From an uncultured Bacteroidales bacterium (GTDB lineage Bacteria; Bacteroidota; Bacteroidia; Bacteroidales; F082), in assembly GCA_905233445.1 (NCBI GenBank), contig CAJOEP010000004.1:62001-126000 (forward strand): a stretch of 64,000 nt of DNA. Direction: 5' to 3'. The translations under genes were made by a program, and so were the position numbers. This document shows, one piece after another, positions 10,455 through 40,599 of this stretch (position 1 is the stretch's first letter; every line of letters starts with the position of its first letter). The notes under the pieces were generated by a model, which saw nothing but the letters and a program-made list of their open reading frames with translations, made no database searches and had not been told where the DNA came from.

Positions 10455-10501
10455 CGTCATTGGGAGATTTCTCGACTTCACTTCGTTTCGCTCGAAATGA
10501 C
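10455..10501. repeat. REP-like element in the atpE-atpF spacer
   Basis: The segment contains GAGATTTCTCGACTTCAC followed by TTCGTTTCGCTCGAAATGAC. The same core occurs at 28779-28817 and 40555-40588. The element is partly self-complementary (TTTCTCGA with TCGAAAT-type arms) and is intercistronic within a transcribed operon. Confidence 0.75.
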
Positions 10502-10507
10502 GGATGG

Positions 10508-10542
10508 GTTTGTGATTGCAACCAACCGTTACAATCACAAAC
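10508..10542. promoter_or_regulatory. 11-bp inverted repeat just downstream of atpE
   Basis: GTTTGTGATTG (10508-10518) and CAATCACAAAC (10532-10542) are exact inverted repeats around a 13-nt loop, starting 8 bp past the atpE stop codon. On the minus-strand transcript this is a hairpin without a U-run, so a 3'-stabilising or processing site is more likely than a full terminator. Confidence 0.6.
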
Positions 10543-12088: not shown

Positions 12089-13402
12089 TTACTTTAAAGT
12101 GAAATGCACTTCCACTTCGCCTTCATCCCTGTCGCGGCCAACCCATACATAATCCTCTTCTTGGAAATAGTCATCTTTTGTGCGTGCGAAACTGTTGTAA
12201 TGTCCTTCAAGCACATCCATATCGGTTCCTTCATAATAGAAGTGTAACTCACCAGTTTTGCTGCTGGGATTAAGATGAAGATCGTAGCTATAAAGTGGGA
12301 TGTGCTGCATTCTGACATGTGCATAAATGGTGTCGGTTTGCCAATTTCCATTAGGGTCGGGGTTATGTCCCATACCGTTGTAATCGTAGTTAACCAAACA
12401 CAGTTCGCAGTGGTCGTAAGGCAAGCTGAAGCCAGTAATCATGAACCAAACATAACGGTTGTTATAGTAATAAATGTCACCGTTCGGACCTTCTGTTGCG
12501 GCTGATCCCCAGAATGTGACAGTGTCGTTTGACTGTGTGACGTGCATGTCTTGGAATTCTCTGAACCAAATGTATTTCATTTCAGAAACTGTAAACTGAC
12601 CGCCGCCGTCGTATGACCATGTGCAGGTTCTGTCGGCTTCCATCTCGAAATTGAATCTCATCCAAGTAGCCTCATCGACTTGTAAATCACAAACATTCTG
12701 TGTCACCGCAACTGGCAAAATCACTTTTTCATCATCCGATGGATATTGTGTGTTAGCCACCCAGCAGTTGATAGTGCCTTGGCGTGGTGTGGTGTTACTG
12801 TTTATCGACACTCTGATTTCTACTTGATTGTTTTCAAGCACAGTCACATTGCACCAGCCGTGTGCTCCATCACCTAAAGAAGCACCATAATGGCTGTATT
12901 CACCTTTGTTTATTGTCACAATCTGCGAAGAAGCATCATAATTGAATGTGAGATTGTTAGGTGTCACTGATGGAGTGTCGCTACCACCACCTCCTCCGCC
13001 ACCTACAGCTTCCTGTCTGACAGATACCGTGAACCATTCTCCGTCTTCGTCATCAGGGTCGTTGGTGTTGGCTACCCAGATTCCAACGCTACATTCACGA
13101 GCTGTAGTGCCAGTGTTTGGGGTTGTGTTGATTTGTACCTTGCCTTGCGCTCTCAGGATTTCGACAGTGCACCAGCCTGCGCCTGCATCATCGACTATAG
13201 CACCGTAGAATTTGTATTTTCCGAGGTTTATTGTAACAATCTGACTGGAAGCATCATTGTCAAATGAGACTTCTTCAACTGATACTGAAGGAGTCACAGA
13301 TGCACTGCCTCCAGAGCTGCCACTGCTTTTGTCGCAGCTGCCCAAAACGAATGCTAATACTGGCATAAGCAGCCAAAATAATAATAGTTTTCTTGTTTTC
13401 AT
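12089..13402 (-). CDS. Lipoprotein with two BACON-like Ig domains
   Basis: This 437-residue protein has a lipoprotein signal (LLMPVLAFVLGSCDKSS) and then two BACON-like beta-sandwich domains, at about residues 38-137 and 148-240. Each starts with a V/L-x-F-D/Y-ASSQIVTI strand and ends with a V-T/R-Q strand. The domains are joined by a GGGGGGG linker. A 200-residue C-terminal region of aromatic-rich beta type is unrecognised. BACON domains are often found in surface proteins that bind glycans or mucin; that role is inference here. The first domain is nearly the same as that of the next gene, so the two arose by duplication with different C-termini. Confidence 0.75.
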   Translation of the reverse strand: MKTRKLLLFWLLMPVLAFVLGSCDKSSGSSGGSASVTPSVSVEEVSFDNDASSQIVTINLGKYKFYGAIVDDAGAGWCTVEILRAQGKVQINTTPNTGTTARECSVGIWVANTNDPDDEDGEWFTVSVRQEAVGGGGGGGSDTPSVTPNNLTFNYDASSQIVTINKGEYSHYGASLGDGAHGWCNVTVLENNQVEIRVSINSNTTPRQGTINCWVANTQYPSDDEKVILPVAVTQNVCDLQVDEATWMRFNFEMEADRTCTWSYDGGGQFTVSEMKYIWFREFQDMHVTQSNDTVTFWGSAATEGPNGDIYYYNNRYVWFMITGFSLPYDHCELCLVNYDYNGMGHNPDPNGNWQTDTIYAHVRMQHIPLYSYDLHLNPSSKTGELHFYYEGTDMDVLEGHYNSFARTKDDYFQEEDYVWVGRDRDEGEVEVHFTLK

Positions 13403-13424
13403 GATTGTAATATTTAATTGTTAT

Positions 13425-14456
13425 TTATTTTCCGGAACGCACAGCACGTACTGAGGCACCTAAAATACGCGTTTGTTGGCTGTTAATATTACAGCCTCCC
13501 TCTCCACAGACGAAAACCCATGCATAATTAGGCACGTTTGTATAGAGTGCATTTGACCAATAATATCCGTAGAAGTTATCGTCATTCATAGACTCATTAT
13601 TAATATAACCGGCGAAAGGAATAAAAATGCTTTTTCCGTTAGAGCCAGTGTAACGTCTGCCACTTATGCCATTAATTTCGGCGTAATCGTGTGTTGTGTG
13701 ATCTTTCAACTCTTGCCATTCCTCTTTTGATGGAATTCTCGCCCCGCTTTCCATGTTTGCTTTTGCGGCGTCATCTTGCAGCTGGAGTTCTGTGAGGTTG
13801 TCGGTGAAGCCCTCCAAACCATCCATTTGACGAGAGCAGTATTTGATTAAATAATAACCTTCCCGACCATAAATGTCAACACCCCATGCTGCATGTCCGT
13901 ATGTAGACCATGTGAATGCCTCTTTAGTTGCAGTCTCACCCCAGGCAAAATAGTCGCCATAGTCTTCAGGCCTGCTGCCTCCAACGTTGTAAGCAGCCCA
14001 TAAGATGCCGCTTGGCAGACCGAGGTCAACCCATTTCTCGGTGGTGCCGCCACCTCCACCACCACCAGTTGCGCTCTGCTGAACAAGGACTGTGAACCAT
14101 TCTTCATCCTCGTCATTAGGATCGTTCGTTTTTGATACCCAGATTTGGACATGGCATTCACGCGCTATGCTACCTGTGTTAGGTGTTGTGGTGATTTTCA
14201 CTTTGCCTTGCGCTCTCAGGATTTCGACATCACACCAGTCAACTATTTCATCGATAAAAGCACCGAAGTATTTGTATCTTCCAAGGTTTATTGTAACAAT
14301 CTGACTGGAAGCCCCGTTGTCAAATGATACTTGATCGACTGATACCGACGGAGTCAACGATGCGCCGCCTCCTGAACTGCTGCTTTTGTCGCAGTTGTTA
14401 AAAACTAATGCCATAAACGGCACAAGCAGACAAAATAATAATGTTCTAGTTTTCAT
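13425..14456 (-). CDS. Lipoprotein with BACON-like and FISUMP-type domains
   Basis: The ORF track starts at 14507, but the methionine at 14456 (MKTRTLLFCLLVPF) fits the signal peptide and the paralogue better; the lipobox cysteine is in NNCDKSS. One BACON-like domain (about residues 30-128) is nearly identical to domain 1 of the neighbouring lipoprotein and is followed by a poly-glycine linker. The C-terminal 200 residues begin EKWVDLGLPSGILWAAYNVG and end ASVRAVRSGK, the signature of the FISUMP/major-paralogous domain common in gut Bacteroidota. A surface location is likely; ligand unknown. Confidence 0.78.
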   Translation of the reverse strand: MKTRTLLFCLLVPFMALVFNNCDKSSSSGGGASLTPSVSVDQVSFDNGASSQIVTINLGRYKYFGAFIDEIVDWCDVEILRAQGKVKITTTPNTGSIARECHVQIWVSKTNDPNDEDEEWFTVLVQQSATGGGGGGGTTEKWVDLGLPSGILWAAYNVGGSRPEDYGDYFAWGETATKEAFTWSTYGHAAWGVDIYGREGYYLIKYCSRQMDGLEGFTDNLTELQLQDDAAKANMESGARIPSKEEWQELKDHTTHDYAEINGISGRRYTGSNGKSIFIPFAGYINNESMNDDNFYGYYWSNALYTNVPNYAWVFVCGEGGCNINSQQTRILGASVRAVRSGK

Positions 14457-28778: not shown

Positions 28779-28817
28779 TGAGATTCCTCGACTCCACTTC
28801 GTTTCGCTCGGAATGAC
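28779..28817. repeat. REP-like element downstream of hipT
   Basis: The sequence TGAGATTCCTCGACTCCAC then TTCGTTTCGCTCGGAATGAC has the same core as 10455-10501 and 40555-40588. It lies between pheT and the HipT-like gene. Confidence 0.75.
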
Positions 28818-28879
28818 AATTACAAACTGCAAAGATACAAAATTCTGACAAAATGTCAGGTAAAAAAAGAAAAAAAGTT

Positions 28880-36547: not shown

Positions 36548-36655
36548 TTATAACCAACTGATCTGAGTTTTACATGAATCGTCCAATTTATCCGCACTTT
36601 TATGTAGATAAATTGCCAGTATAGCGAAAGCAATTACAAGAATAAACCAAATCAT
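36548..36655 (-). CDS. 35-residue membrane protein coupled to TerB-like gene
   Basis: This ORF is too short for the ORF track. ATG at 36655 overlaps the TGA of the upstream TerB-like gene as ATGA. The product is one membrane helix (MIWFILVIAFAILAIYLHKS) followed by a short charged tail, ADKLDDSCKTQISWL. The coupling and the clear helix make it a likely real gene. It may anchor or regulate the TerB-like protein. Confidence 0.6.
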   Translation of the reverse strand: MIWFILVIAFAILAIYLHKSADKLDDSCKTQISWL

Positions 36656-37083
36656 ATTGTTCTGCTTTTAAAAGCATTAAGTGTGGTGTTAATGTCATTC
36701 ATATTAATAGGTGGTAAACCGCATGCCATTGTTACAAAGCGTAACAAAGTCATTTCTCTTTCATGAATTTCACCATCAGATACCATTATTATAATTAGCA
36801 AAGCTTGTACATATTGTTTCTGTATTGTGTTCATTTCAGAAACTATACAAATCGCAGAACGAGGATCCATTTCTAAAATTGCACTTTCATTTAGGTTGAT
36901 AAACTCGTTATAGTCTAAACCAAATCTTTTCATTTGTGTAAGTAACACTTCTATCTCAATCTCTTTAGTCTTACCATCTGCATCAATCATACCATGTGCA
37001 ATATTTAAGATGGCAATTAGCTCTTTCTTGTTAAATCTTATACCGTCCATTTCTTTAATATTAATTAGCTCTCCAGCTGCCAT
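36652..37083 (-). CDS. TerB-like protein
   Basis: This 143-residue helical protein has two TerB-type half repeats, each with an acidic aspartate-rich turn: AHGMIDADGKTKEIEIEVLLTQMKRFGL and IMVSDGEIHEREMTLLRFVTMACGLP. TerB-family domains bind metal ions and occur in tellurite-resistance and phage-defence-linked operons, but isolated versions have many roles. It is the first gene behind a 220-nt structured leader and is coupled to a 35-residue membrane protein. Confidence 0.65.
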   Translation of the reverse strand: MAAGELINIKEMDGIRFNKKELIAILNIAHGMIDADGKTKEIEIEVLLTQMKRFGLDYNEFINLNESAILEMDPRSAICIVSEMNTIQKQYVQALLIIIMVSDGEIHEREMTLLRFVTMACGLPPINMNDINTTLNAFKSRTI

Positions 37084-37304
37084 AAGAGTAATAATAAATA
37101 GAAGCGTGGAGCCGATACCACGTCTTCTGATGGAGGTCGTAGGAATAACCTTGTAATGGAGAGTAGCAATCGGTCCACGCTATACACGTGAACCATTACA
37201 CTTTTCTTGCATTACATTTGGAAGTTTCCTACGTTTCCATCAGCAAGTCGAGCATAACGCTTCGTTGTTTCAATAAGTCGATGCTTTCCTTTCGGAATGC
37301 ATCT
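37084..37304 (-). promoter_or_regulatory. Highly structured 5' leader of the TerB-like operon
   Basis: Between the -7 box TATATTTGC (37305-37313) and the start codon at 37083 lies a leader of about 220 nt. It has nested pairings: CTGATGGA/TCCATCAG (37127-37134 with 37236-37243), CGTAGGAA/TTCCTACG (37138-37145 with 37226-37233), an outer GAAGCGT/ACGCTTC closure (37101-37107 with 37257-37263), an inner GGTCCACG/CGTGAACC hairpin (37172-37194), and TGTAATG at 37152 that can pair with CATTACA at 37194-37200 or at 37210-37216. A short ORF MLDLLMET (37229-37255) overlaps the main stem. This looks like a riboswitch, attenuator or independent RNA. Confidence 0.6.
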
Positions 37305-37313
37305 GCAAATATA
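37305..37313 (-). promoter_or_regulatory. -7 box for the structured leader
   Basis: TATATTTGC on the minus strand fits TAnnTTTGC, with a TTTGAA element about 20 bp upstream (near 37326). It points towards the TerB-like operon and is back to back with the promoter at 37389. Confidence 0.6.
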
Positions 37314-37368
37314 AAAAACTATTTCAAATTCAAATAAATAAGAATAAAAAATTTTTTCAAAAACCATC

Positions 37369-40519: not shown

Positions 40520-40588
40520 TTTATTCGCCTTGGCGAATGCTTTCGCTTCGCTCAGGTCTCGACTACACTTCGTTTCGCTCGAAATGAC
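40520..40588. repeat. REP-like element with extra hairpin
   Basis: ATTCGCC-TT-GGCGAAT is a small perfect hairpin (40522-40537), followed by TCTCGACTACAC and TTCGTTTCGCTCGAAATGAC (40555-40588), the same core as at 10455 and 28779. Confidence 0.75.
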
Positions 40589-40599
40589 GGGTGGGGAAA

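Follow-up and report, generated by a model that had tools for sequence, protein, structure and literature searches.

In a 64-kb window of the genome of an uncultured Bacteroidales bacterium (contig CAJOEP010000004.1, positions 62,001 to 126,000), a leader RNA of about 250 bases was found on the minus strand, immediately upstream of a TerB-like gene. It belongs to a family of leaders that apparently forms an undescribed class within a known kind of control. The reading toward which we lean is that this cis-acting 5′ leader acts as an attenuator, in which a ribosome on a tiny upstream open reading frame (uORF) would compete with the RNA helices P1 and P2. Comparison of homologues carries four parts of this reading, namely the structure, a contact between an internal strand (L5) and the loop of the last hairpin (P6), the cis placement, and selection on the uORF frame. 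It is unusual for one leader class to unite a large knotted core with a minimal uORF and so broad a range of target genes.

Architecture and Covariation of the Leader

A preliminary description, made from the letters of the sequence, had proposed a perfect -7 box followed by long complementary pairs nested in one architecture. The box and all of the pairs are present on the minus strand. The leader at 37313-37084 folds with -78.3 kcal/mol, compared with -48.9 +/- 4.3 for shuffled sequences (z -6.88, 0/200), and an extended leader (37304-37051, minus strand) gives a fold z of -6.3. The plus strand of the same region also reaches -6.3, which is expected because the region is a long inverted repeat. 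Homologues, promoter and downstream genes all indicate the minus strand. The end that had been proposed for the element, 37084, did not hold, as hairpin P6 (37088-37069) belongs to it. A covariance model (CM) matches a 163-nucleotide (nt) core at 37263-37101 of the minus strand (E 4e-35). The features are as follows.

37306..37334, minus: promoter, -7 box TATATTTG (37313-37306) with TTTG 21 nt upstream (37334-37331); seen in the sequence
37280..37303, minus: 5′ hairpin P0, GATGC...GCATC with inner TTCC/GGAA; predicted by folding, homologues have a hairpin of other sequence here
37264..37279, minus: A-rich unpaired stretch before the uORF, resembling a Bacteroidota translation start region; from homologues
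37257..37263, minus: P1 5′ strand, GAAGCGT; compensatory changes
37229..37255, minus: uORF of eight codons (MLDLLMET), ATGCTCGACTTGCTGATGGAAACGTAG, stop TAG within P2b; a 4- or 8-codon frame is kept closed in homologues
37226..37242, minus: P2 5′ strands, P2a TGATGG (37242-37237) and P2b CGTAGGAA (37233-37226); covariation
37206..37247, minus: possible long-range pair of CTTG (37247-37244) with CAAG (37209-37206); near-invariant complement, compensatory CTTC/GAAG in locus L218
37210..37216, minus: P3 5′ strand, TGTAATG; own-partner versus swapped-partner complementarity
37172..37194, minus: hairpin P4, GGTTCACG/CGTGGACC, adjoining CCGAT (37173-37169); 95.7% paired, permutation of CCGAT with L5 0/500
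37152..37158, minus: P3 3′ strand, CATTACA; partner-swap test
37128..37145, minus: P2 3′ strands, P2b TTCCTACG (37145-37138) and P2a CCATCA (37133-37128); covariation
37108..37116, minus: L5 strand, ATCGG (37116-37112) and CGGCTCC (37114-37108); alternative partner of the core CCGAT or of the P6 loop
37101..37107, minus: P1 3′ strand, ACGCTTC; covariation, end of the CM match
37089..37100, minus: U-rich tract directly after P1; T counts in homologues
37069..37088, minus: hairpin P6, CTCT-TATGGCAGCTGG-AGAG, loop GGCAGCTG pairing with the L5 strand; folding, L5-P6 variants and swap test
36652..37050, minus: TerB-like gene from a probable start at ATG 37050; modest match to PF05099 (26.7 bits, cut-off 24.4)

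The preliminary description would have been refuted by a lack of compensatory changes in homologous loci, and this check did not refute it. On a MAFFT alignment made blind to structure, the named helices were 97.4% paired and held 205 double changes, against 63.6 after shuffling. The covariation score was 0.365 versus 0.180 for shuffled alignments and at most 0.093 when the partners were slid. Covariation was seen at 9/13 pairs of P2, and two P2b pairs were exchanged in a large part of the alignment (CG to GC in 24/60 sequences, AU to GC in 30/60). P1 occurs as AAAC/GTTT, TAGC/GCTA, AGGT/ACCT and AGGC/GCCT. For P3, partners were swapped between copies without an alignment; complementarity was 17.1 with the own partner versus 12.1 +/- 0.22 with swapped ones (0/300). 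The TGTAATG segment of P3 had been credited with two alternative partners; it does occur twice, and its true partner among homologues is CATTACA.

The same swap test gave 16.0 for L5 with its own P6 loop versus 13.1 +/- 0.28 with others (0/300). In the window this contact joins CGGCTCC to GGCAGCTG with one bulge, and in relatives it appears as CAGTTCC/GGAACTG, TTGGCTC/GAGCCAA, CAGTACC/GGTACTG and others. These many compensatory changes support P1, P2a, P2b, P3 and the L5-P6 contact as predicted pairings. The pairing of CCGAT (37173-37169) with ATCGG (37116-37112), raised from the window sequence alone, is complementary and covaries moderately in relatives. It beats permutation more weakly than L5-P6 (10.3 vs 9.4 +/- 0.17, 0/500), and L5 therefore has two possible partners. 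Moreover, AAGC of the P1 5′ strand is complementary to an adjacent GCTC or GCTT in 66/92 copies, forming a hairpin (H1) alternative to P1, and the choice between P1 and H1 is a possible second switch. Directly after P1, at least 6 T in 10 nt were counted in 82/115 homologues versus 10% upstream, with a run of at least four T in 46/115. A further hairpin, P5, of the form GTGG/CCAC and overlapping P1, was considered and not adopted; it is present in many copies but missing from several (A1 rows L003 and L012).

The Short Open Reading Frame

The eight-codon frame MLDLLMET was originally placed on the main stem, and it does lie there (37255-37229), with its start and stop on the 5′ strands of P1 and P2. 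In 107/115 homologous copies, the frame that begins at the AUG of GAAGCGTTATGCT is 4 or 8 codons long. Two stops are in use, one at codon 5 and one a TAG or TGA within P2b. When the P2b stop is in frame, a codon-5 stop is found in 25/83 copies; when it is out of frame, 31/32 carry one (TAA, TAG or TGA; p 1e-11). The search pattern partly built invariance of the uORF AUG into this sample, and a CM-collected sample was used as a recheck, in which codon-5 stops were found in 6/28 copies with the P2b stop in frame versus 26/30 with it out of frame. The coupling persists when the comparison is confined to copies with a T at the first position of codon 5. In subgroup B, 41/41 have the codon-5 stop when the second stop is out of frame versus 10/25 otherwise, and in the other subgroup the counts are 9/10 versus 17/41.

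Frame 0 is closed within nine codons in 160/165 cases, compared with 114 and 42 in the other two frames. The copy that precedes the beta-lactamase gene blaMUN-1 has two indels of opposite sign, which together bring the frame back to 8 codons. In homologues, positions -16 to -9 relative to the uORF AUG are rich in A, the same as before main open reading frames. A conserved leader peptide was rejected as the object of selection, as the peptides vary (MLIL, MLVL, MRIKYLET, MSSSCVYKA) and the closed frame alone is kept. The simplest reading of these comparisons is selection for a short closed frame.

Cis Placement and Downstream Genes

In 97/114 homologues the stretch 30-75 nt upstream of P1 contains a TAnnTTTG box, compared with 2.3% of control windows, and the next ATG follows P1 at two preferred distances, 50 and 75 nt. 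This conserved position between promoter and start codon is that of a cis-regulatory leader. The 110 downstream proteins fall into 76 families, 60 of them singletons, and have no metabolic theme. They are mostly secreted proteins or lipoproteins (signal peptide by a crude rule in 69/110), and LRR_5, WG repeats, Lcl_C and DUF4988 are among their Pfam domains. The element had been introduced as the leader of a TerB-like operon. TerB does follow it in the window, but regulation specific to TerB was rejected, since TerB is rare and the leader precedes all 76 families. A regulon confined to defence was likewise rejected, PADLOC matches being few and scattered.

The TerB gene likely starts at ATG 37050 rather than at ATG 37083, which falls inside P6. 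The downstream ATG lies 51 nt past P1, the commonest spacing of the family, and aligns with the start of the TerB homologue in L218. The strongest single case for cis placement comes from genome G009, where a TerB homologue 37% identical follows a divergent leader (E 4e-9) at the same spacing. There P1 (AAGGTGT/ACACCTT), P2, P3 and L5-P6 are changed and, by inspection, all still paired.

In the window's genus, many genes, those for lipoproteins among them, have a separate box, GTTGCGCCCGACACGNATTTAGGGA, 30-34 nt ahead of their ATG, whether the leader is present or absent. It occurs in 34/36 genomes (loci L223-L252, G001-G035), for example at positions 384 and 1501 of L246 and positions 398 and 1501 of L240 (minus strand), and it accounts for the leaders with 75-nt spacing. 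Four such loci (L231, L240, L246 and L250) had no Rfam match.

Distribution of the Family

The genome of the window holds at least five clear copies, of 69-100% identity, and a CM search adds weaker ones. A copy was found by BLAST in 21/60 genomes of close relatives. A pattern scan of public genomes returned at least 119 loci; among the matches listed, nearly all are from Bacteroidales, including Bacteroides, Phocaeicola, Parabacteroides, Prevotella, Alistipes, Butyricimonas and Muribaculaceae. Beyond Bacteroidales, weak members turn up in further orders of the class. Twelve named Bacteroidales isolates and metagenome-assembled genomes (MAGs), chosen for already holding a copy, contain 2-15 copies each; CM counts per genome are lower bounds, as the large searches scored 14-19 candidates per genome. 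MAGs that share contigs with the window's congeners come chiefly from rumen and gut samples.

Family members are also found on plasmids, and 19 viral contigs match a shorter core pattern, two of them doubtful (L044 and L049). On plasmid pBUN1 of Bacteroides uniformis (L219 2554-2770), the leader lies 48-50 nt before blaMUN-1. On a Parabacteroides distasonis plasmid (L220 2561-2744) a DUF4433 gene follows the leader; here P6 is not clearly recognisable, and the leader lies unusually close to the annotated start. In a Bacteroides MAG, three leader copies lie within 900 bases (L213 1501-2400), one of them on the opposite strand. A 2.6-Mb contig labelled Staphylococcus sp. (L123, MAG JAMPDC010000001.1) also carries the leader and is probably mislabelled, as is probably the case for a locus labelled Firmicutes (L070).

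Other repeats were seen in the window. A dispersed repeat, TCTCGACT.CACTTCGTTTCGCTCGAAATGACGG, occurs in three copies 77-95% identical (10470-10508, 28786-28824 and 40557-40595). A gene region has probably been duplicated at 12870-14442, where blocks of 133-192 bp are present as two to three direct repeats about 1060 bp apart.

Proposed Mechanism and Alternative Explanations

Ribosome use of the uORF, its competition with P1/P2, the direction of control and the type of output are what we infer in the following model. The transcript would start about 40 nt before P1 and fold into a large nested RNA (P1-P4), and the L5 strand would contact the loop of P6, which adjoins the main start codon. A ribosome starting, stalled or ending at the uORF would cover the 5′ strands of P1 and P2. 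Because the uORF start and stops lie on these strands, a ribosome there and the folded core would be mutually exclusive. Formation of P1/P2, followed by the U-rich tract, and of the L5-P6 contact would then depend on translation status, and this state would set expression of the downstream gene. As output, either transcription could terminate early at P1 and the U-rich tract, or the L5-P6 contact could govern the start of translation.

Several observations weigh against this model. Because the copies share ancestry, the uORF counts are not independent, and their p-values overstate independence. The uORF is not universal, as its AUG is absent in distant members (L173-L186, L218) and in some Bacteroides subfamilies, and its peptide is conserved no further than the RNA demands. 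The longest T run is at most 3 in 69/115 homologues, the tract often being interrupted, and P6 is not seen to block the main start codon.

The preliminary description had spoken of a riboswitch or a ribosome-sensing attenuator of a class it did not recognise, which agrees with the cis placement and the lack of a match in Rfam 15. The short frame appears to be under selection for shortness, and the ribosome-sensing half is therefore favoured. The other half, a riboswitch or protein-binding leader whose core would bind a small molecule, second messenger or RNA-binding protein and whose short frame would be a by-product of the conserved RNA, is rather unlikely in our judgement. It would suit the many conserved unpaired core bases, the core kept without an AUG in distant members, the up to 14-15 copies upstream of heterogeneous genes, and the large knotted architecture, which, like that of cobalamin riboswitches, touches a hairpin close to the start codon. 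However, RNA structure alone fails to explain why the codon-5 stop is coupled to frame, and a metabolic theme is missing downstream. A constitutive 5′ module that stabilises or insulates the mRNA without switching would fit the very stable fold near the 5′ end and the coding gene always directly downstream, but strong sequence conservation of unpaired bases, the two-partner L5 strand and the uORF constraint go beyond what such a module needs and make it improbable.

Two further explanations would detach the RNA from the gene that follows. As a trans-acting small RNA that merely happens to precede genes, akin to the multicopy FopS family, it would be expected to be multicopy with its own promoter and a U-rich tract after P1, as observed, and in weak Sphingobacteriales-like matches the next gene is about 230 nt off. 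Nonetheless, the tight 50/75-nt spacing to start codons, the position of P6 next to the ATG and the conserved pair of TerB and leader make this very improbable, and FopS RNAs are described with another architecture, a single-stranded 5′ stretch and a terminator hairpin (PMC11697453). A mobile repeat similar to miniature inverted-repeat transposable elements, with no role for the host gene, would account for the scatter of copies, which extends to plasmids and phage contigs. It is scarcely credible for copies about 70% identical that keep their structure, with helices maintained through compensatory change, that lack conserved outer ends, and that nearly always have an open reading frame at a fixed distance; the fixed spacing from P1 to ATG and the covariation largely refute it.

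The attenuator model can be extended to the whole family. Tentatively, and with less confidence than for the single leader, its members may be one class of translation-status sensors spread across Bacteroidota, with one architecture and a 4- or 8-codon uORF placing dozens of unrelated accessory genes (surface lipoproteins, TerB, beta-lactamase) under common ribosome-coupled control and moving between chromosomes, plasmids and phage.

Relation to Known Systems and Significance

Cyclic di-GMP-I riboswitches occur in many copies before heterogeneous surface or secreted genes, and in cobalamin riboswitches a core loop contacts a hairpin near the gene start. Both differ from the leader family, which has no sequence or covariance-model match to them in Rfam 15. 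At the gathering score, Rfam 15 gave no match in the window or in 21 other loci, most of them homologous, and a permissive search of the element returned nothing bacterial up to E 10. A description of the family was not found in the literature searched, which did not extend to supplementary tables, where an unnamed listing is possible (e.g., PMC8040213).

Short uORFs are known sensors of translation stress (PMC12121999, PMC5418344). The tetQ leader of Bacteroides CTnDOT is described as a structured leader with a four-codon uORF and ribosome-sensing control (Wang et al., 2005, as cited in PMC5418344 and PMC12121999). As described, it resembles the present family in host (Bacteroides), very short uORF, structured leader and the control proposed here for the next gene, and differs in serving one gene and one drug. 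Stalling at various positions of the toiL uORF of topAI in E. coli reshapes its leader, a general sensor of translation stress (PMC12121999). It shares a short uORF in a leader, but belongs to another phylum, has a longer uORF and no multicopy family, and its output includes Rho termination. FopS small RNAs, found at about 14 copies per genome in Bacteroidaceae and also in phage, have sigma-ABfr promoters, act in trans and are in Rfam (PMC11697453). Copy number in Bacteroidaceae, sigma-ABfr promoters and phage occurrence are common to both families, whereas FopS has a single-stranded 5′ seed and terminator, trans action and the Rfam entry that the leader family lacks. Identity with FopS was rejected, as nested P1-P4 and P6 stand here against one short hairpin there (architecture per PMC11697453).

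The family would be a large, apparently undescribed class of regulatory RNA in the phylum that dominates the gut and has few known cis-acting RNAs, and its proposed uORF mechanism can be tested directly. Many orphan surface and accessory genes would share a layer of control through it, and one of its leaders lies in front of the beta-lactamase gene blaMUN-1.
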